From assembly GCA_937981555.1 (NCBI GenBank), contig CALJOK010000007.1, positions 1 to 64,000 on the forward strand: 64,000 bases of DNA, written 5' to 3'. This DNA comes from an uncultured Saprospiraceae bacterium. GTDB lineage: Bacteria > Bacteroidota > Bacteroidia > Chitinophagales > Saprospiraceae. Shown piece after piece: positions 5,289 through 15,432 of the stretch. The notes below the pieces were generated by a model. It made no database searches, was not told the DNA's origin, and worked only from the letters and a program-made list of their open reading frames with translations. The translations under genes and the position numbers were made by a program. The stretch's first letter is position 1. Each line of letters begins with the position of its first letter.

Positions 5289-7487
5289 ATGAAGAAAAAG
5301 AAAAAACTTAAAAAAATAAAAATGGGTCAAAAACCCGCAGCCTCAGAACTAAAACACCAAATATTTAAATTCTTAAAAACCAATCCTAAAAAGCGACTCA
5401 CCGCAAAACAACTAATCAAAAAACTAAACTTGGGGAACAGTCCTGATGCAGTCAACGATGCTATGTTGAAGTTGGCGAAGGAAGGAAAATTATACGAAAT
5501 TGAACCAGGCAGATTTCGCCTCGACAGATTTGCAGATACCTCAAGTGGGAAAATAAAATCACGTAGAAAATTACATGTTGGAAAAGCGGACGTGACTCGA
5601 AGTGGCGCTGCATACATTGTTATAGATGACTTGGAAGACGATGTGTATGTTGCACAAAGACATACGAACGGAGTGATGCAAGGAGACCAAGTTCAAGTGT
5701 CAGTTCATTTGCCTCGAGGTCGAAGAAAACCAGAAGGAGAAATTGTGAAAATCTTAAATCGAGCAACGGAACACTTTTTAGGTGTCATTCGAATTTATGG
5801 AGATTATGCGCTTTTGACTCCGAGCATGTATCAATATGAAGACTTGGAAATTCAAGTTGGATTGGATGATCTGAAAGAAGCAAAGGATGAAGATGTGGTC
5901 GTGGTAAAAGTGACGAAGTGGGGCGAGAGTTTCAATTTTAGATCAGTCGGAGTTGTGACAAGTGTGTTGGGTGAAGAAGGAGGAAGCGAGATTGCAATGA
6001 AGTCAATTTTGATCAACAAAGGTTTTGAATTAGACTTTTCAGAAGCAGTAAAACGAGAGTCAGAAGCATTGACAGATGAACTCTCGGATGCAGAAGTTGC
6101 TCGACGGAGAGATATGCGAGACATCACGACGTTTACGATTGATCCAGATACCGCGAAGGATTTTGATGATGCATTATCGTATCGAATTTTGGAAGATGGA
6201 CGAAAAGAAATTGGTGTTCACATTGCAGATGTAACACATTATGTTCGACCAAAAACTGCTCTTGATAAAGAAGCATTGAAACGAAGTACTTCCGTTTATT
6301 TGGTGGATCGAGTGTTGCCGATGTTGCCTGAAAAAATCTCCAACGAATTATGTTCGCTTCGACCGAATGAAGATAAATGTACGTTCAGCGCAGTTTTTAC
6401 TTTTAGTGCAAAAGGAAGAATTGAGGAGCGTTGGTTTGGGAAAACTTTGATTCATTCTGACCGGAGATTTAGCTACGAAGAGGCGCAAGAAATTTTAGAA
6501 AATGGAGAAGGAGAATATGCAGAAGAATTATTAGATTTAAATAAAATTGCCAAAAAACTTCAGAAGAAGAAATTCAAAAATGGAGCGATCAGTTTTGAAT
6601 CTCCTGAGGTGAAATTTAAGTTGGACGAAGATGGAACACCAATTGATGTTTTTGTAAAAGTTCGAAAAGATGCACATAAGTTAATTGAAGAATTTATGTT
6701 GTTGGCGAATAAAGAAGTAGCGACTTATATTGTCAAAAAAGGTAAAGATGGAGGTGGAGAGATTCCATTCGTTTATCGAGTTCACGATGAGCCAGATCCT
6801 GATAAAATTGCCGAATTTGCTAGGTTTGCGCTTGAATTAGGTTTTAAGATGGAAATGCAAACGCCTAAGCAAGTTGCTGAAAGTTTCCTTGCACTCGATG
6901 TAGCTGCGCGTGATAATGAAGCATTGAGAATGCTGCAGCCAATTGCGATTCGTTCGATGGCAAAAGCAATTTATACGACGGATAATATTGGTCACTATGG
7001 ATTAGCTTTTGAAAATTATTCACATTTTACTTCTCCGATTCGAAGGTACTCAGATGTGCTTGCACATCGTTTGTTGGAGAAAAATTTGGAAGAAACTTTC
7101 CGAGATGATAAAGGAGAGTTGGAAGCAAAATGTCGACACATTTCTACTCAAGAAAAGAAGGCTGCTGAAGCGGAAAGAGAGTCTGTGAAATATAAGCAAG
7201 TAGAATATTCCAGTAAGCATATTGGAGAAGTTTTCGATGCACATATTTCAGGAATGATTGATCGTGGAATCTTTGTTCAAATCGATCATAGTAACGCAGA
7301 AGGATTGATTGGTTTTGAAAATTTCTCAGAATCGTACGAGTTGGGAAGTGGTAGGTTGAAAGCAGTTGGAACGAAAACGGGAAGTGTTTTGAAGATGGGA
7401 CAGAAGGTACGAGCGAGAATTATTTCAACTGATTTGGAAAAGAAACAAATTGAATTAGAGTTGGTAGAAGAAGGAGAAGAGGAGTAA
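5289..7487 (+). CDS. rnr: Ribonuclease R (3'-5' exoribonuclease, RNB family)
   Basis: A processive 3'-to-5' exoribonuclease that degrades structured RNA. The 732 residues show the expected order: a Lys-rich start with a winged-helix region (about 15-70), cold-shock-like OB domains (about 85-240), the RNB catalytic domain with the metal-binding aspartates in IDPDTAKDFDDALS near residue 280, the FTSPIRRYSD motif near residue 580, and an S1 RNA-binding domain at about 640-728. The lysine-rich N-terminus rather than a lysine-rich tail is a small peculiarity. It is followed by coaX after 39 bases on the same strand. Confidence 0.94.
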   Translation: MKKKKKLKKIKMGQKPAASELKHQIFKFLKTNPKKRLTAKQLIKKLNLGNSPDAVNDAMLKLAKEGKLYEIEPGRFRLDRFADTSSGKIKSRRKLHVGKADVTRSGAAYIVIDDLEDDVYVAQRHTNGVMQGDQVQVSVHLPRGRRKPEGEIVKILNRATEHFLGVIRIYGDYALLTPSMYQYEDLEIQVGLDDLKEAKDEDVVVVKVTKWGESFNFRSVGVVTSVLGEEGGSEIAMKSILINKGFELDFSEAVKRESEALTDELSDAEVARRRDMRDITTFTIDPDTAKDFDDALSYRILEDGRKEIGVHIADVTHYVRPKTALDKEALKRSTSVYLVDRVLPMLPEKISNELCSLRPNEDKCTFSAVFTFSAKGRIEERWFGKTLIHSDRRFSYEEAQEILENGEGEYAEELLDLNKIAKKLQKKKFKNGAISFESPEVKFKLDEDGTPIDVFVKVRKDAHKLIEEFMLLANKEVATYIVKKGKDGGGEIPFVYRVHDEPDPDKIAEFARFALELGFKMEMQTPKQVAESFLALDVAARDNEALRMLQPIAIRSMAKAIYTTDNIGHYGLAFENYSHFTSPIRRYSDVLAHRLLEKNLEETFRDDKGELEAKCRHISTQEKKAAEAERESVKYKQVEYSSKHIGEVFDAHISGMIDRGIFVQIDHSNAEGLIGFENFSESYELGSGRLKAVGTKTGSVLKMGQKVRARIISTDLEKKQIELELVEEGEEE

Positions 7488-7526: not shown

Positions 7527-8288
7527 ATGCTTTTAGCTATTGATATTGGAAATTCAAATATTGTACTTGCGCTTCATGATGGCGCTGAATGGAAACACAC
7601 TTTTCGGTTTCCGACTTTGTCGGATGAGTCTTCGCTTTTTTATAAAATGAAAATCGTCAATGATTTTTGGGAAGCGAATATTATTCCTAATCAGATTAAG
7701 AAATGTGTTTTGAGTAGTGTGGTTCCGATTCTTCGAGATGTATTTGAAGAGATACTTTTGGAGCTTTTTGGAAAACCACCTATCGTTGTCAACTCCACTA
7801 TTTTTCCAAAATTAAAATTACAAATTGATCGACCTGATGAAATTGGAACTGACTTAGTGGCGAATGCAATTGCTGCGAATCAGTTGTTTAAAAAAGATTG
7901 TATCGTTGTCGATTTTGGAACAGCTTTGACTTTTACAGTTGTTTCAAAAGAAGGTCATCTGAAAGGAGTAAATATAGTTCCAGGATTGGAAACGGCCATT
8001 CAATCACTTGTTGGAAATACTGCACAATTGCCAGAAGTACCACTTGAAATGCCAAAATCTGCGATTGGAAAAAATACAGTTACAGCGATTCAAGCTGGGA
8101 TTTTGATCGGTTATGTTGGTTTGGTGCGACATCAATTAGCGAGCATTAGAGCAGAAGTTGGAGAGCAATATATTGCTGTTGCAACTGGCGGATTATCAAA
8201 AATTTTAGCTGAGTTAGAAAATGACTTTGAAGAAGTGAATATGGATTTGACGATGGAAGGATTAAGATTGATCGGAGAAACGGTATAA
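7527..8288 (+). CDS. coaX: Type III pantothenate kinase
   Basis: Phosphorylates pantothenate in the first step of coenzyme A synthesis; type III enzymes belong to the ASKHA fold and need a monovalent cation. The N-terminal phosphate loop AIDIGNSN (residues 4-11), the PDEIGTDLVANA motif near residue 110 and the VVDFGTALTFT motif near residue 130 are intact. The 253-residue length is normal. It follows rnr closely and ends at a strong stem-loop. Its last codons (GLRLIGE) reappear as a fragment in the gap between the two DUF1800 genes further on. Confidence 0.93.
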   Translation: MLLAIDIGNSNIVLALHDGAEWKHTFRFPTLSDESSLFYKMKIVNDFWEANIIPNQIKKCVLSSVVPILRDVFEEILLELFGKPPIVVNSTIFPKLKLQIDRPDEIGTDLVANAIAANQLFKKDCIVVDFGTALTFTVVSKEGHLKGVNIVPGLETAIQSLVGNTAQLPEVPLEMPKSAIGKNTVTAIQAGILIGYVGLVRHQLASIRAEVGEQYIAVATGGLSKILAELENDFEEVNMDLTMEGLRLIGETV

Positions 8289-8312
8289 TTTTTTTCAAAA
8301 AAAATAAACAGG

Positions 8313-8346
8313 AAAGCGTTTTGCAATTGATTTTGCAAAACGCTTT
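8313..8346 (+). terminator. Stem-loop after coaX
   Basis: A perfect 14 bp stem (8313-8326 with 8333-8346) with a 6-base loop just after the coaX stop codon. The T-run after it is short and interrupted. Confidence 0.75.
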
Positions 8347-8663
8347 TCTGTTTTCTAGCTTTACGCATTAGCTTCTTTCTCAAAATAACCCGCTTTACGA
8401 ACTCTTGCTCTGTACAAATACCCTCTCACGGATTTCGCAAAGCTAGCGTTGTATTTTTGGTATTTTTTTTCGAAAAGAAGTTGGAAGAGTAAATGTAGTA
8501 GAGATGTCAAGTTTTTAATTCAATTAAACCTTTTTCTTAATTACAAAGGTCTAATTTTTGATGTGAAATAAAAAACACCGTTTCTTCACCAAATCTAAAA
8601 TAAATATTTTCTTAAAGTACACCGCCAAAAACGTATTTCTCATTTTAAAAAAACCAAAGGAAA
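8347..8663. other. Intergenic region before the DUF1800 genes
   Basis: Contains the possible short minus-strand ORF and a spaced inverted repeat (CTAGCTTT at 8355-8362, AAAGCTAG at 8439-8446). From about 8511 to the start codon the sequence is AT-rich with no consensus -7 box that I can identify. Confidence 0.4.
8361..8510 (-). CDS. Possible short basic ORF or gene remnant
   Basis: A 49-codon open frame on the minus strand with only a TTG as possible start. Its C-terminal half is strikingly protein-like, with Arg, Lys, Tyr and Ala in a pattern such as SVRGYLYRARVRKAGYFE, and it ends shortly before the coaX terminator. Codon content is richer in G+C than the flanks. An in-frame TGA lies four codons before the TTG. 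It may be a small gene, or the tail of a decayed or deleted gene. I do not recognise the family. Confidence 0.25.
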   Translation of the reverse strand: MTSLLHLLFQLLFEKKYQKYNASFAKSVRGYLYRARVRKAGYFEKEANA

Positions 8664-10313
8664 ATGCATATGAATCGAAGAGCTTCACTCGCATTATTAA
8701 TGGGAAAGCAGAAAAAATCTGTTCCCAAATTAACTACGGCAGCGGTTACTGTAACGAATACTTTTGCTCCCTACACCGGAACTTGGGGGTTTGAGCAAGC
8801 TGCCCATTTACTTCGTCGAACGACCTTCGGATCAACTTATACTCAAATAAAACAAGCCACTTCTGATGGTTTGAATGCGACTGTAGATTTGCTCTTTGAA
8901 AGTCAACCACTTCCTAACGATCCAATTTATTATGATTTCGAAAATGATCCCAATGTTGGCAATGGCGAAGCTTGGGTAAATGAACCAACGGACTTCACCA
9001 TCTTAGATTTGAATATTGCTCGAAAAAAATCTTTGCAAGGTTGGTCGTACAAAATTATTCGAGAATCAGGGATGAATATCCGAGAAAAAATGGTGCTGTT
9101 TTGGCACAATCATTTTGTGGTAGCCAACACGAATGATGCAAGACTCCAACATCGATATATGACTTTGTTGAGAGAAAATGCTTTGGGGGATTTTAAAGAG
9201 TTAGTAAAATTGATTACGATTGATCCTTCCATGTTGCAATATTTAAATGGGACGCAAAATTCAAAGAATGCTCCCAATGAAAATTATGCAAGAGAATTGT
9301 TAGAACTTTTTACTATCGGAAAAGGAGTTGCTGCTGGACCTGGTGATTACACCAATTACACGGAAGATGATGTGGTACAAATTGCTCGTTCGTTGACAGG
9401 TTGGAACCATTTAGATATTGATAATCTAACTCAGGTGCAGGCAGGTTATAATCCAAATCTTCATGATACTGGTGATAAACAATTGTCCCATCGATTCAAT
9501 GATATAATCATTACGAATGAAGCCGAAAATGAATATAGAGTTGTCATTGATATTATTTTTCAAAAAGTTGAAGTCGCTCGATTTATTGCTCGAAAATTGT
9601 ATAGTTGGTTTGTTCACTTTGATATTAATAGTGAAGTCGAAGCGAATATTATCGAACCGATGGCGCAAATGTTAATCGGTGATAATTATGAGGTTAAAGA
9701 AGCTTTAATGGCACTTTTATCGAGTGAGCATTTTTACGATATGTCTATCCGTGGTTGTATGATTACTCATCCGATTGATTATTTATTTAAGATGATCAAT
9801 GCATTTGAATTAGAACTCAACCCAGATATTTTAGAAGAATATAATATTTTAAAAAGGTTATATACTGCGATGATTCCGCTCGAAATGATCATATATGCTC
9901 CTCCGACTGTCGCTGGATGGAAAGCATATTATCAAGCGCCTCAATTTTATAGAATTTGGATAAATGCAGTTACGCTGCCGTTGCGAATGAATTACTCTGA
10001 TACATTGATGGAAGGATATGATGTATCGGGATTTCAAGTGAAAATTAATGTGCTCGACTTTGTGGCATCACTTGACAATCCAGCTGATCCTGATGATTTG
10101 ATTACTGAAATCGCAAGTATTTTATTTGCTCAACCTTTAGTTCAAGAACAAGTCGATTCGTTGAAAGACTCTCATGGAATTACGAATCCTGAGTGGCAAG
10201 ACGAATACTTAGATTACAGTACAGGCAATGTTAGTCTTGAGCCAGCCATTGATAATAAGCTCAAAGACTTGGTCAAAACGATGTTGAAAATGCCTGAGGT
10301 TTATCTCATGTAA
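8664..10313 (+). CDS. DUF1800 family protein, copy A
   Basis: A 549-residue protein of the DUF1800 family, recognised by the AAHLLRRTTFG motif near residue 50, the WHNHF motif near residue 150, and the NENYARELLELFTIG and EDDVVQIARSLTGW stretches. In Bacteroidota and Planctomycetes such proteins are nearly always encoded next to DUF1501 proteins, as here; the biochemical role is not known. No standard signal peptide is visible. It is a tandem paralog of the next gene: the first 20 and the last 60 or so residues are almost identical, and the middle differs by scattered substitutions. The start follows the shared ATGCATATGAATCG context seen in both copies. Confidence 0.88.
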   Translation: MHMNRRASLALLMGKQKKSVPKLTTAAVTVTNTFAPYTGTWGFEQAAHLLRRTTFGSTYTQIKQATSDGLNATVDLLFESQPLPNDPIYYDFENDPNVGNGEAWVNEPTDFTILDLNIARKKSLQGWSYKIIRESGMNIREKMVLFWHNHFVVANTNDARLQHRYMTLLRENALGDFKELVKLITIDPSMLQYLNGTQNSKNAPNENYARELLELFTIGKGVAAGPGDYTNYTEDDVVQIARSLTGWNHLDIDNLTQVQAGYNPNLHDTGDKQLSHRFNDIIITNEAENEYRVVIDIIFQKVEVARFIARKLYSWFVHFDINSEVEANIIEPMAQMLIGDNYEVKEALMALLSSEHFYDMSIRGCMITHPIDYLFKMINAFELELNPDILEEYNILKRLYTAMIPLEMIIYAPPTVAGWKAYYQAPQFYRIWINAVTLPLRMNYSDTLMEGYDVSGFQVKINVLDFVASLDNPADPDDLITEIASILFAQPLVQEQVDSLKDSHGITNPEWQDEYLDYSTGNVSLEPAIDNKLKDLVKTMLKMPEVYLM

Positions 10314-10440
10314 CTGGTTTTAGACTTTTTGACTAACCAAAAAATCAATGTCGGAGCGCATCAAATTAGACTGGAAGGATTGTGCTTGATCGGAGAAAGT
10401 AGCAGGTCGTTTTTTTCCAAAAAGAAACTTAAGAAATAAG
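10314..10440 (+). pseudogene. Chimeric scar: DUF1501 tail fused to coaX tail
   Basis: Positions about 10326-10379 match the end of the DUF1501 gene at about 13680-13733 at roughly 85 percent identity (46 of 54 by eye); in frame it reads LTNQKINVGAHQIRLEG against LTNQKFNAGTHQIRMEG of the T9SS tail. From about 10372 the sequence switches to the coaX end (8255-8280), with the 13 bases TTGATCGGAGAAA identical. The switch falls on the shared bases TGGAAGGA. This is what an unequal crossover that duplicated the DUF1800-DUF1501 block would leave after loss of most of the first DUF1501 copy. Confidence 0.75.
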
Positions 10441-10532
10441 AGGTGAGATTTTTTTTCTAAATTAGATTAAACTATTAATGACTCACGGAGTCAAAATTTC
10501 AATCAAAGCTTATTTTTTTAAACCTAAATTCA

Positions 10533-12179
10533 ATGCATATGAATCGAAGAGCTTCGCTCGCATTATTAATGGGGAAAGAGAAAAAAACTATTTCCAAATT
10601 AACTACAGCAACTACTGTGACGAATACTTTTGCACTCTATACAGGAGCTTGGGGGGTTGAGCAAGCGGCCCATTTGCTTCGCCGAACGACCTTCGGGCCA
10701 ACTTATGCTCAAATGAAACAAGCCACTTCGGATGGTTTGGATGCGACCATAAGTTTGCTTTTTGAAAGTCAACCACTTCCTGCCGAGCCTATATATTATA
10801 ATTTCGAAAATGATCCAAATATTGCGAATGGCGAGAGTTGGGTTGATGAACCGACCAACAACGCCATCTCAGGTTTGAATGGTGCCCGAAAAAGATCTTT
10901 GCAGGGGTGGTCATTCAAAACCATTCGAGAATCAGGAATGAACATTCGAGAGAAAATGCTTTTGTTTTGGCATAATCATTTTGTGGTAGCCGATACGAAT
11001 GATTCGAGATTTCAACATAGGTATATGACTTTGTTGAGAGAAAATGCATTGGGCAATTTTAAAGAATTAGTAGAATTGATTACGATCGATCCTTCTATGT
11101 TGCAATATTTGAATGGTACGCAAAATTCAAAAAATGCGCCCAATGAAAATTTTTCAAGAGAGTTGTTAGAACTTTTCACCATTGGAAAAGGAGATGCTGC
11201 TGGCCCTGGTGATTACACCAACTATACGGAAGATGATGTAGTACAAATTGCTCGTGCGTTGACAGGATGGAGGCATTTTGATATTGATGATTTAACTCAG
11301 GTTAAAGCAGGTTATAATGCAAACCGTCATGACACAGAAGATAAACAATTGTCTCATCGATTCAATGATGTCATTATTACGAATGGAGAGGAAAATGAAT
11401 ATAAAACTGTCATCGATATTATTTTTCAAAAAGATGAAGTGGCGCGTTTTATTTCTCGAAAACTGTATCGTTGGTTTGTTCACTTTGATATTACTAGTGA
11501 CGTCGAAGCGAATATTATCGAACCGATGGCGCAAATGTTAATCGCTGATAATTATAATGTGCAACCAACTTTGATGGCACTTTTGTCGAGCGAACATTTT
11601 TACGACATGTCAATTCGAGGTTGTATGATTACTCATCCGATTGATTATTTATTCAAAATGGTCAATACATTTGAGTTGGAACTCAACCCAGATATTTTAG
11701 AAGAGTATAATATTTTAAGAAGATTATTTACGGCTATCGTGCCATTAGAAATGGTCCTGTATGCTCATCCAAATGTCGCAGGATGGAAAGCCTATTATCA
11801 AGCGCCTCAATTTTATAAAATTTGGATAAACGCAGTTACGCTACCTGTGCGAATGAATTATTCTGATGCATTATCGGAAGGGTATAATGTGTCTGGATTT
11901 CAAGTGAAACTTAATGTGCTCAACTTTGTGGCATCACTCGACAACCCAGCTGATCCTGATGATTTGATTACTGAAATCGCAAGTATTTTATTTGCTCAAC
12001 CATTAGTGCAAGAGCAAGTTGACTCGTTAAAAGATTCTCATGGAATCACGAACCCTGAGTGGCAAGATGAGTACTTAGATTACAGTACAGGCAACACTAG
12101 TATTGAGCCAGCCATTGAAAGTAAACTTAAAGGCTTGGTTAAAACGATGCTAAAAATGCCTGAGGTTTATCTCATGTAA
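10533..12179 (+). CDS. DUF1800 family protein, copy B
   Basis: A 548-residue paralog of the preceding gene with the same family motifs (AAHLLRRTTFG, WHNHF, NFSRELLELFTIG). Most differences are conservative, so both copies are probably functional. It lies 81 bases before the DUF1501 gene, the usual partner, and the pair is probably one transcription unit. Function within the family is unknown; association with exported DUF1501 partners suggests an envelope or surface role, which is inference. The presence of a second copy is explained by the recombination scar upstream. Confidence 0.88.
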   Translation: MHMNRRASLALLMGKEKKTISKLTTATTVTNTFALYTGAWGVEQAAHLLRRTTFGPTYAQMKQATSDGLDATISLLFESQPLPAEPIYYNFENDPNIANGESWVDEPTNNAISGLNGARKRSLQGWSFKTIRESGMNIREKMLLFWHNHFVVADTNDSRFQHRYMTLLRENALGNFKELVELITIDPSMLQYLNGTQNSKNAPNENFSRELLELFTIGKGDAAGPGDYTNYTEDDVVQIARALTGWRHFDIDDLTQVKAGYNANRHDTEDKQLSHRFNDVIITNGEENEYKTVIDIIFQKDEVARFISRKLYRWFVHFDITSDVEANIIEPMAQMLIADNYNVQPTLMALLSSEHFYDMSIRGCMITHPIDYLFKMVNTFELELNPDILEEYNILRRLFTAIVPLEMVLYAHPNVAGWKAYYQAPQFYKIWINAVTLPVRMNYSDALSEGYNVSGFQVKLNVLNFVASLDNPADPDDLITEIASILFAQPLVQEQVDSLKDSHGITNPEWQDEYLDYSTGNTSIEPAIESKLKGLVKTMLKMPEVYLM

Positions 12180-12260
12180 CAATGTGCACACGTTTTTTTT
12201 GTTTAAATTTTATTTTAAAAACCTTCTCACTTTTTTGTGGGAAATTAAATTTTAGTTCTT

Positions 12261-13817
12261 ATGAAAAGAAGGACATTTATAAAAAGAAGTTCTGCGGCAT
12301 CTGTTCCTGTTTTGTTAGGAGGAGTAAATGTTTCCGCTTTAAATAATCCGATGTTTAATATGTTAAACACGGACTCAGATAAAGTGTTGGTTTTAATTCA
12401 ATTGGATGGAGGAAATGATGGATTGAATATGCTGATTCCAAAAGACCAATATTCCAACCTTGTTCAAGTTCGAGAAAATGTAATCGTTCCCGAAAGTTCG
12501 ATTTTGGATTTGACCGATACTTTAGGTTTTCATCCTGTGATGGGTGATCTGAAAAATGTATTTGACAATGGTAAATTAAACATCATTCAAAGTACAGGTT
12601 ATCCAAATCAAAATCGTTCACATTTCCGTTCGACGGACATTTGGACATCAGGTTCCGCAGCTAATGAATATTTAAATACAGGTTGGTTAGGTCGATATTT
12701 TGAGCATTTACATACAGGTTTTCCAACAGGTTATCCAAATGCAGAATTTCCAGATCCATTTGCGATTACAGTTGGCTCTCAAGTCACACCAACTTGCGAA
12801 GGTTCAGGGGGTAATTTTAGTATGGCACTCGTTGACCCTGATAATTTATCAGCTTTGGCAACACCTGTAAATGGTACTTTGCCTGATTCATGCTACGGAG
12901 ATCAAGTTGAATTTTTGATTGATAGCATCGTGCAAACGAATGCCTACAATGATGTTATTCAAACTGCTAATGACAACGGAGCAAACCTTTCGACGAAATA
13001 TGCAGATGATGATAATTTGTCCAGCAAGTTAAAAATTGTGGCAAAATTAATTGCAGGAGGATTAAAAACAAAAGTCTATGTTGTCAACCTCGGAGGGTTC
13101 GATACACATGCTTTGCAAGTAGATGGTTCAGATCCGACAATTGGAGCACATGCTAATTTGTTGAATAGTTTGTCCAAAGCAATTTGTGCTTTCCAAGATG
13201 ATTTGGAACAATTAGATTTGGATAAGCGAGTGGTCGGAATGGTTTATTCTGAGTTCGGAAGACGGATTCGTTCGAATGATAGTTTGGGAACAGATCATGG
13301 AACTGCTGCGCCGATGATGCTTTTTGGATCATGTGTCAACCCAGCAGTTTTGGGAGACAATCCTGAAATTTCACCTGACGTAGATAATCAAGAAGGCGTG
13401 CCGATGCAATTTGATTTTAGATCAGTTTATGGAACTGTTTTGATGGATTGGTTTGACGTGGAAGAACAAGTGGTGAAAGACTTATTGTATGATGATTTCC
13501 AACATTTACCAATTTTGGAAACTTGTGATTCGGTGAGTGCACAGGAGATTTTAAAAGAAGGAGAATTAGAATTGAATGCTTATCCAAATCCATTTGATCA
13601 ATCAACTAATATTGAATTTACAGTAAAATCTGGTTGGGTAAAAATCAGTTTGTTTGATGTCATCGGAAGCGAATTGAAAGTTTTGACCAACCAAAAATTC
13701 AATGCGGGAACACATCAAATTAGAATGGAAGGAAATAACTTAGCATCAGGAAGTTACTACTACCGTATCCAAACTGACTACGGTCAAAAGACGAAGCGAT
13801 TAGTGAAAATGAAATAA
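12261..13817 (+). CDS. DUF1501 family protein with T9SS sorting domain
   Basis: A 518-residue exported protein. The N-terminus MKRRTFIKRSSAASVPVLLGG resembles a twin-arginine signal, as is common for DUF1501 proteins. The body holds the family hallmarks: VLIQLDGGNDGLNMLIP near residue 45, an NRSHFRSTDIW stretch near residue 115, LGGFDTHALQ near residue 275 and YSEFGRRIRSNDSLGTDHGTAAPMM near residue 335, a sulfatase/phosphatase-like fold by family knowledge. The last 80 residues (NAYPNPFDQSTNIEF to RLVKMK) form a type A T9SS C-terminal sorting domain, so the protein is probably delivered to the cell surface. It ends at a strong terminator. Confidence 0.9.
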   Translation: MKRRTFIKRSSAASVPVLLGGVNVSALNNPMFNMLNTDSDKVLVLIQLDGGNDGLNMLIPKDQYSNLVQVRENVIVPESSILDLTDTLGFHPVMGDLKNVFDNGKLNIIQSTGYPNQNRSHFRSTDIWTSGSAANEYLNTGWLGRYFEHLHTGFPTGYPNAEFPDPFAITVGSQVTPTCEGSGGNFSMALVDPDNLSALATPVNGTLPDSCYGDQVEFLIDSIVQTNAYNDVIQTANDNGANLSTKYADDDNLSSKLKIVAKLIAGGLKTKVYVVNLGGFDTHALQVDGSDPTIGAHANLLNSLSKAICAFQDDLEQLDLDKRVVGMVYSEFGRRIRSNDSLGTDHGTAAPMMLFGSCVNPAVLGDNPEISPDVDNQEGVPMQFDFRSVYGTVLMDWFDVEEQVVKDLLYDDFQHLPILETCDSVSAQEILKEGELELNAYPNPFDQSTNIEFTVKSGWVKISLFDVIGSELKVLTNQKFNAGTHQIRMEGNNLASGSYYYRIQTDYGQKTKRLVKMK

Positions 13818-13944: not shown

Positions 13945-15432
13945 ATGGAACCATTTTTTACAAATGATGCTGTTGTACTGGGTATTTTACTTGGAGTGCT
14001 AGCAGCCATTTTCTACACACATAGTCTTGAATCAGCAGGATGGAAAAAATTCTACAAATTTGTACCTGCTTTATTGTTGTGTTATTTTATTCCCGCTATT
14101 TTATATTATCCATTGGGACTAATCGCTTCAGATTGGTTTGATAATTCATTGTTGGATTATGTCAAAGATTTGACTTTAGTCCTTCCTGAAAAAATGAAAG
14201 CAAGTTTTGAAAGTGCGCAAGCAGTTTTCAATTCAGGTTCATATGATGATATAAAATTGCTTTTGGAAAAAAATGGAGTGGAAAGTGGAGTCATCAATTC
14301 TTACACAAAACATTCGAGATTATACTTTGTGGCATCGAGATATTTGTTGCCAGCGAGTTTGGTTTTGCTTTGCGTAAGTATAGATTTTAAAGCGATTATG
14401 AATTTAGGTTGGAAAGCGATTGTGATGTTTTTGACGGCAACGTTAGGTATTGTAATCGGTGGACCAATTGCACTTTTCGCAGCGATTAATTTATTCCCAA
14501 GCGTGTTGGGTGAGAATTCTGTGGAGATAGCAAATGGTTTGTCAACCGTAGCAGGAAGTTGGATTGGAGGAGGAGCGAATCAGAATGCGATGAAAATTAT
14601 TTATGAAGTACCGAACGAAGTTTTTGCCATCATGCTCGTAGTTGATATTGTGGTTGCAAATATTTGGATGGGCTTTCTTTTGTATGGCGCAAATGTTACC
14701 GAACGAATTGATGCATGGTTAAAAGCAGATACTTCAGCCATCGAAGATTTGAAAAATAGAGTAGCAGAATATAGTGCAAGTATTGCTCAAATGCCAACGA
14801 CTACAACTTTATTTATCATGTTGGCAGTTGCTTTTGGAGCAGTTGGAATTTCGCATTGGGGAGCAGATTTGATTGCACCATTTTTTGGAGACATGAATGA
14901 AGCATCAAAGGTTGTTATTGGAACAAATGAAGATGGCAGTAAGATTTTCTCAGCAGGAAGTCTTGTCGAAAATGGATTAAGTTCTGTAATGTCAGGATTC
15001 TTTTGGTTGATCGTAATTTCAACAACGGTAGGTTTACTTTTGTCATTTACGTCAGCTCGAAAATTAGAAGGAGTTGGTGCATCTCGATGGGGATCAATTT
15101 TTATTTACATCTTGGTAGCGACGATTGGAATGCATATGAATTTGGGAAAAGTGTGGGCGAATTTAGGATTATTTGGCATCGGAATTATTTGGATGTTAGT
15201 TCATGTAACGCTTTTAATTTTAGTAGCAAAACTCATTCGAGCACCTTTCTTTTTTGTGGCAGTTGGAAGCCAAGCCAATGTTGGAGGAGCGGCCTCAGCG
15301 CCAGTTGTAGCTTCGGCATTTAGTCCTTCGCTTGCACCTGTAGGAGCATTGTTAGCAGTTTTGGGATATGCGATTGGAACGTATGGAGCAATTATGTGTG
15401 CGGAAATTATGCGAGCAATGGTTGGTGGGTAA
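13945..15432 (+). CDS. DUF819 family integral membrane protein
   Basis: A 495-residue polytopic membrane protein with about ten to twelve hydrophobic segments. The glycine-rich pairs ANGLSTVAGSWIGGGANQNAMK near residue 200 and GSQANVGGAASAPVVASAF near residue 445 resemble the paired re-entrant motifs of the DUF819 (YjcL-like) family, which is distantly related to sodium-dependent carrier folds; the substrate is unknown. It is a single gene bounded by the DUF1501 terminator and by a large palindrome that overlaps its stop codon. Confidence 0.85.
   Translation: MEPFFTNDAVVLGILLGVLAAIFYTHSLESAGWKKFYKFVPALLLCYFIPAILYYPLGLIASDWFDNSLLDYVKDLTLVLPEKMKASFESAQAVFNSGSYDDIKLLLEKNGVESGVINSYTKHSRLYFVASRYLLPASLVLLCVSIDFKAIMNLGWKAIVMFLTATLGIVIGGPIALFAAINLFPSVLGENSVEIANGLSTVAGSWIGGGANQNAMKIIYEVPNEVFAIMLVVDIVVANIWMGFLLYGANVTERIDAWLKADTSAIEDLKNRVAEYSASIAQMPTTTTLFIMLAVAFGAVGISHWGADLIAPFFGDMNEASKVVIGTNEDGSKIFSAGSLVENGLSSVMSGFFWLIVISTTVGLLLSFTSARKLEGVGASRWGSIFIYILVATIGMHMNLGKVWANLGLFGIGIIWMLVHVTLLILVAKLIRAPFFFVAVGSQANVGGAASAPVVASAFSPSLAPVGALLAVLGYAIGTYGAIMCAEIMRAMVGG

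Follow-up and report, generated by a model that had tools for sequence, protein, structure and literature searches.

A chimeric gap between two DUF1800 genes of an uncultured Saprospiraceae bacterium: a probable tandem-duplication seam, now decayed

Spontaneous rearrangements in Salmonella include duplications with short microhomology at their junctions, as described in the available part of one study (PMC3411829). Among the duplication candidates given there, those with 7 and 9 bp stayed unconfirmed, four of the five at 11 to 17 bp were confirmed, and the count is 5 of 8 in all (PMC3411829). As to the genes that concern us here, the available part of another report calls the DUF1800-DUF1501 pair a predicted operon and records two such pairs in tandem in Agrobacterium vitis (PMC5122149).

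The window, that is, the whole stretch of 64,000 nucleotides analysed here, comes from an uncultured Saprospiraceae bacterium whose draft genome (G000) amounts to 7.25 Mb in 117 contigs. It contains, in this order, genes for RNase R (5289-7487), coaX (7527-8288), DUF1800 copy A (8664-10313), DUF1800 copy B (10533-12179), DUF1501 (12261-13817) and DUF819 (13945-15432). The coaX gene, for a type III pantothenate kinase, is intact (Pfam PF03309, E 8.8e-57). Copy A is an intact frame of 549 aa (PF08811, E 4.4e-86) without a DUF1501 of its own, and copy B, of 548 aa (PF08811, E 8e-88), still has DUF1501 as its next downstream neighbour. The DUF1501 gene (PF07394, E 3.8e-19) ends in a T9SS sorting domain, matched by two C-terminal models (PF18962, E 1.4e-9; TIGR04183, E 4.6e-10). 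From coaX to DUF1501, these genes and all the pieces discussed below are read on the + strand. Titles and the beginnings of abstracts on DUF1800 and DUF1501 were scanned, and nothing on this locus was found among them. To our knowledge, where a bacterial tandem duplication is old, its join can rarely still be read.

The gap between the two DUF1800 genes, 10314-10532, is a three-part chimera: a DUF1501 tail, a coaX end and a coaX-DUF1800 spacer follow each other in that order and lead into DUF1800 B, so that the gap reads as the end of one block running into the start of the next. We put at about 0.85 the probability that a tandem duplication with these donors left it as its seam, since decayed; this core is common to two of the alternatives weighed below, a later deletion join and template switching. 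The change is of a known kind, a tandem duplication with a short junction followed by later loss, and the case is an instructive and well preserved one. As in the Salmonella duplications that the available part of the study describes, a doubled stretch would have been joined at a short sequence common to both of its ends; unlike them, the event in the window is an old one that has become fixed (dS about 0.5 between the copies), its join can be read only as a remnant, and its putative microhomology of 6-9 bp lies at the short end (PMC3411829). The families are the same as in the Agrobacterium vitis pairs as described in the available part of that report, but in the window one DUF1501 of the doubled pair was lost and the seam was kept (PMC5122149).

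The left junction of the gap, 10314-10326, is where about 1.49 kb is missing, namely a spacer and most of a first DUF1501 copy: position 10326 pairs with position 13680, which is separated from the stop of copy B by 1500 bases (12180-13679), against 12 bases (10314-10325) after copy A. The next segment, 10327-10379, is a remnant of the T9SS sorting tail of that first copy, and is identical to 13681-13733 of the surviving DUF1501, its source-like relative, at 46 of 53 positions (87%). The initial annotation, made by eye, had reported this match as 46 of 54, a count that includes the mismatch 10326/13680. The local alignment scores 71, the best of 2000 dinucleotide shuffles 31, and none of them reaches the observed score. 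When 10314-10400 is searched against its own genome, the DUF1501 tail is the best non-self match (E 1.4e-11), coaX 8254-8280 is second among the non-self matches listed (E 0.0065), and the following one has an E of 0.157. These two best non-self matches in 7.25 Mb are the two donors that the initial annotation had named, both of them beside the DUF1800 pair. Seen as a sorting signal, the remnant lacks the C-terminal end of the domain: it stops at the seam, at residues LEG (MEG in the parent), and the last 27 residues are missing.

The second piece, 10380-10398, is a remnant of the coaX 3' end, identical to the window coaX at 16 of 19 positions; counted together with seam bases, the match between 10372-10398 and its donor, coaX 8254-8280, reaches 24 of 27 (89%). 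The origin of this piece had first been argued from 13 identical bases, TTGATCGGAGAAA. We rejected this 13-mer as a proof standing alone: it occurs 3 times in the genome (in the scar, in coaX and in one unrelated place), and it proves little by itself because the same pattern read backwards, as a control, also occurs 3 times. When 10380-10440 is compared, without TGGAAGGA, to 8220-8300, which is the coaX 3' end plus 12 bases, the score is reached by 1 of 2000 shuffles; when it is compared to all of coaX, by 50 of 2000. What makes the coaX part firm is the sequence that follows it: in the right place and in the right orientation, it is the spacer that two congeners, G001 and G003, have between coaX and DUF1800.

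This third piece, 10399-10532, is a remnant of the spacer without the coaX stop and hairpin, and it carries the scar as far as DUF1800 copy B. The finding of a chimera was right and slightly understated, the scar having been given too short. Aligned with the G001 spacer, the piece scores 43.5 against a shuffle mean of 20.8, and with the G003 spacer 40.5 against 21.8, with 0 of 2000 shuffles reaching the score in either case; three control gaps of the window, aligned with the same two spacers, remain within 1.3 standard deviations of their own shuffles. Taken whole, 10380-10532 was also aligned with the coaX 3' end and spacer together, where the score is reached by 0 of 1000 shuffles in G001, 0 of 1000 in G003 and 1 of 1000 in the window. 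The window's own coaX-DUF1800A spacer (8289-8663), which was aligned with the spacers of copy B, G001 and G003, has a terminator-like hairpin 3' of coaX, at about 8310-8349 (-24 kcal/mol computed for 8310-8360). As direct evidence for the spacer piece it is weak, and the congener spacers carry the argument: against the copy-A spacer alone, 122 of 2000 shuffles reach the score of the scar, and such weak Z values mean little, because the control gap 12180-12260 attains a Z of 2.5 and the scar itself 1.7. When 10380-10532 served as query for a search of the genome at the DNA level, neither coaX nor its spacer was among the 42 matches listed (40 of 233 candidates scored); short A+T-rich matches elsewhere ranked higher, the best of them covering 25 bases of the A+T-rich run, on another contig (E 2.7e-4).

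The genus is represented by 5 genomes, that of the window included (G000 and G001 to G004), all of which were searched; the nearest to the window genome among the four others is G001. If the seam was read correctly, a single order coaX-DUF1800-DUF1501 should be the ancestral one, as the initial annotation predicted, and this order is present in two of the four: G001 and G003 both have RNase R-coaX-DUF1800-DUF1501-DUF819, with one DUF1800 at the locus. The G001 contig contains, letter for letter, a public record stretch, L037 (CAJQQY010000370.1, uncultured Saprospiraceae bacterium). In G002, coaX lies on a different contig and the order reads RNase R-DUF1800-DUF1501. In G004 coaX is elsewhere too, and the copy number of DUF1800 is unsure because the gene is split over two contig ends (L034 and L035); this draft is 66% complete, and an assembler might break at a repeat, as at these ends. 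The gap of the window is not shared by G001 and G003, whose coaX-DUF1800 gaps are without the DUF1501 tail: the best scores obtained for it there are 24 and 22, which 59 and 190 of 2000 shuffles reach, and the same search in their own DUF1501 genes gives 66 and 56, which 0 of 2000 shuffles reach. An intermediate of the duplication was found in none of the four other genus genomes examined.

Of 555 relatives the best 80 were kept, and 96 loci were surveyed. These are not independent, since L037 lies inside L031 letter for letter, and the proteins of L047 and L123, and of L050 and L124, are identical. DUF1501 directly follows DUF1800 in 91 of the 96, and the remaining 5 stop there at a contig end. 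Only L031 and L037, which are the same contig, and L032 have coaX beside DUF1800, in a survey by phmmer with the window CoaX at E 1e-5 in which some loci offer little upstream sequence. With three identifiable pieces, and with the ancestral order in two congeners, the duplication becomes reconstructable in an uncultured Saprospiraceae lineage.

The next question is when the two copies separated. A protein tree was built from the DUF1800 frames above 400 bits, in 78 rows; L034, L035, L037, L048, L085, L089 and L101, which were incomplete, broken or duplicates, were left out. In this tree, copy A and copy B pair as sisters (99/90, starred); G001 stands next to them (98/78, not starred), and then G003 (100/100). 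Informative site patterns favour the pairing of A with B by 56 against 29 and 13. The dS between A and B is 0.49, and that between either copy and the G001 DUF1800 is 0.62-0.64; for the other genes, window and G001 are separated by dS values of 0.56 (DUF1501), 0.68 (DUF819), 0.70 (RNase R) and 0.77 (coaX). The tree, the sites and the dS together indicate that the duplication is specific to the window lineage among the genomes examined, and that it is old. To the eye, the patchy similarity of the spacers, that of copy A being like G001 and that of copy B like G003, had suggested that the duplication predates the split from G001; sites, dS and tree reject this. In raw DNA identity, copy B is equally near to G001 (0.867) and to A (0.864), because A evolved faster, its branch in the tree measuring 0.10 against 0.03 for B. 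With a dN/dS of 0.16 between the copies and an intact frame, copy A does not have the look of a pseudogene.

At the seam itself, 10371-10379, the window now has CTGGAAGGA, and both present parents have ATGGAAGGA (coaX 8253-8261, DUF1501 13725-13733). The switch had been placed on TGGAAGGA, shared by both parents, and this is confirmed, the present parents having one base more in common. The run shared by coaX and DUF1501 at this place is thus of 9 bp today (ATGGAAGGA), and it is of 6 bp, GAAGGA, in G001 and of 5 bp, GAAGG, in G003. Such a microhomology is not diagnostic, because 9-mers shared between coaX and DUF1501 are common, with 25 pairs. The block between the two shared places has 3513 bp in G001, and G003 has 3485 bp there; in the window, the second block measures 3354 bp and the first is now of 2118 bp, its shortfall being mainly the lost body of DUF1501.

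These observations support the history proposed in the initial annotation, made of an ancestral order, a crossover, a block duplication and the loss of a DUF1501; the identity of the breakpoint, the enzymology and the order of events are what we infer from them. In an ancestor with coaX-DUF1800-DUF1501, a stretch of about 3.5 kb, beginning close to the 3' end of coaX and ending close to that of DUF1501, would have been doubled in tandem by an illegitimate joining at a short microhomology of 6-9 bp, somewhere between GAAGGA and ATGGAAGGA. The tail of the first DUF1501 copy would thereby have run into the coaX 3' end and the spacer that precedes DUF1800 copy B. Later, a deletion of about 1.49 kb would have removed nearly all of this first DUF1501, and a smaller one the coaX stop and hairpin of the second block; both DUF1800 copies would have survived, B keeping its DUF1501 neighbour and A diverging faster. 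This order of events is the one with the fewest steps, which falls short of a proof. A run so short suggests an illegitimate rather than a homologous exchange and, judging from the length of the junction alone, the duplication may have formed without RecA, by exchange between sister strands or by slippage.

That the seam is the very breakpoint of the duplication is a view that we somewhat favour. A larger block, for example one with all of coaX, could also have been duplicated and its breakpoints erased, the TGGAAGGA seam being then a later deletion from the first DUF1501 tail to the second coaX. Such a history predicts the same final sequence, the absence of further coaX or DUF1501 3' sequence at the seam being expected either way; deletions at short microhomologies are reported in the available part of the Salmonella study (PMC3411829), and the scar already shows two other losses. 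It costs one event more than the duplication of a 3.5 kb block joined at the seam, and we consider it possible and clearly the less probable of the two.

If the seam is the original join, it has a consequence for the first DUF1501. The shared bases are in the same reading frame in coaX and in DUF1501, so the join would have fused the first DUF1501 to the last residues of coaX, these replacing its own last 27. By analogy with Porphyromonas, where the T9SS signal has been narrowed to the last 22 residues (PMC5445135, available part), and where, in the available part of a second study, RgpB is inactive after the loss of two terminal residues and another cargo, PPAD, tolerates the loss of two residues and not of four (PMC11285876), the newborn protein would probably have been unable to leave the cell by T9SS. 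Having lost the part needed for T9SS export, the first DUF1501 may have been expendable. One could go further, and conjecture that the duplication was made and decided at once: the frame-preserving join would have cut the export signal, the locus would have been born with two DUF1800 and one working DUF1501, copy A, freed from its partner, would have been driven to faster divergence toward a new role, and the open frame of the scar could begin an extended copy A. We hold this conjecture to be improbable. Of the 53 positions of the tail remnant, 7 differ, and about 13 would be expected to under free decay since the duplication; the probability of so low a divergence is 0.02-0.04 at dS 0.49, and ranges from 0.003 to 0.37 when a dS of 0.3-0.6 is assumed. 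This good preservation is in mild tension with a first DUF1501 dead at birth.

The frame that follows the stop of copy A (10311-10313) keeps the register of copy A and meets no stop over 41 codons until the TAA at 10437 (10314-10439 in all); it traverses the tail and coaX remnants each in its own frame. Its openness is probably an inherited one, combined with a one-in-three chance of frame.

A complete double block, which the initial annotation proposed to look for in relatives, does exist in G018, of another genus of the family, as the result of an independent event and not as an intermediate of the present one. It has DUF1800-DUF1501-DUF1800-DUF1501 at L117:3066-10029, with copies 76% and 87% identical in protein, and the repetition extends to part of the spacer upstream and part of the sequence that follows DUF1501 (0 of 1000 shuffles for each). 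This duplication is not fresh, because the first G018 DUF1800 pairs in the tree with that of another record, L052 (100/99), and the second lies outside them. G018 shows that the proposed intermediate form can exist and persist.

This case also bears on the idea of a single complex replication event, a template switching in which copying would have left the end of DUF1800 for the DUF1501 tail, followed it over some 60 bases and then jumped back to the coaX 3' end, both junctions arising together. Two junctions within about 60 bases, and a seam at a microhomology, are what such an event would leave. However, the missing coaX stop and hairpin would still call for a separate event, a complete double block exists independently in G018, and free decay from the beginning would, if anything, have left the tail remnant less well kept than it is; we regard this explanation as improbable. 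That the similarities arose by chance, or from another gene with a sorting tail, DUF1800 being doubled by other means, could be argued from a coaX part that is short and weak alone, but we reject it as very improbable on the whole-genome search, where the DUF1501 tail is the best match (E 1.4e-11) and the flanking coaX the next non-self one, and on the alignment of the remainder with congener coaX-DUF1800 spacers.

Whatever its exact course, the decayed tandem duplication shifted a conserved two-gene pair of unknown function to a 2:1 ratio. The same arrangement, DUF1800-DUF1800-DUF1501, is found at L064:4092-9149, L118:9659-14354 and L081:4128-9167, where the pairs are older, with copies 52-57% identical. 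In the tree, the pairs of L064 and L118 share one duplication and that of L081 has its own, hence at least two separate duplications. This recurrence may mean that additional copies of DUF1800 are tolerated or are of use. Remnants of DUF1501 were sought between the DUF1800 genes of these pairs, with no match in L064 and, in L118, one with an E of 5 on the other strand. In L081, a match of 21 residues (E 0.005) was rejected as a remnant: it lies where the upstream DUF1800 ends, and the query residues that it involves are those whose frame overlaps the second DUF1800 at its end, so that two DUF1800 ends, and no DUF1501, are what is matched.

A last observation concerns the spacer before copy A, where some 90 bases, at 8360-8455, are absent before copy B and in G001 and G003. 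The ends of this stretch are, by eye, inverted (CTAGCTTTACG / CGCAAAGCTAG), and its other matches in the genome are 72-76% identical over 55-67 bases (E 6.6e-4 and 0.195): it is possibly a small inserted element.
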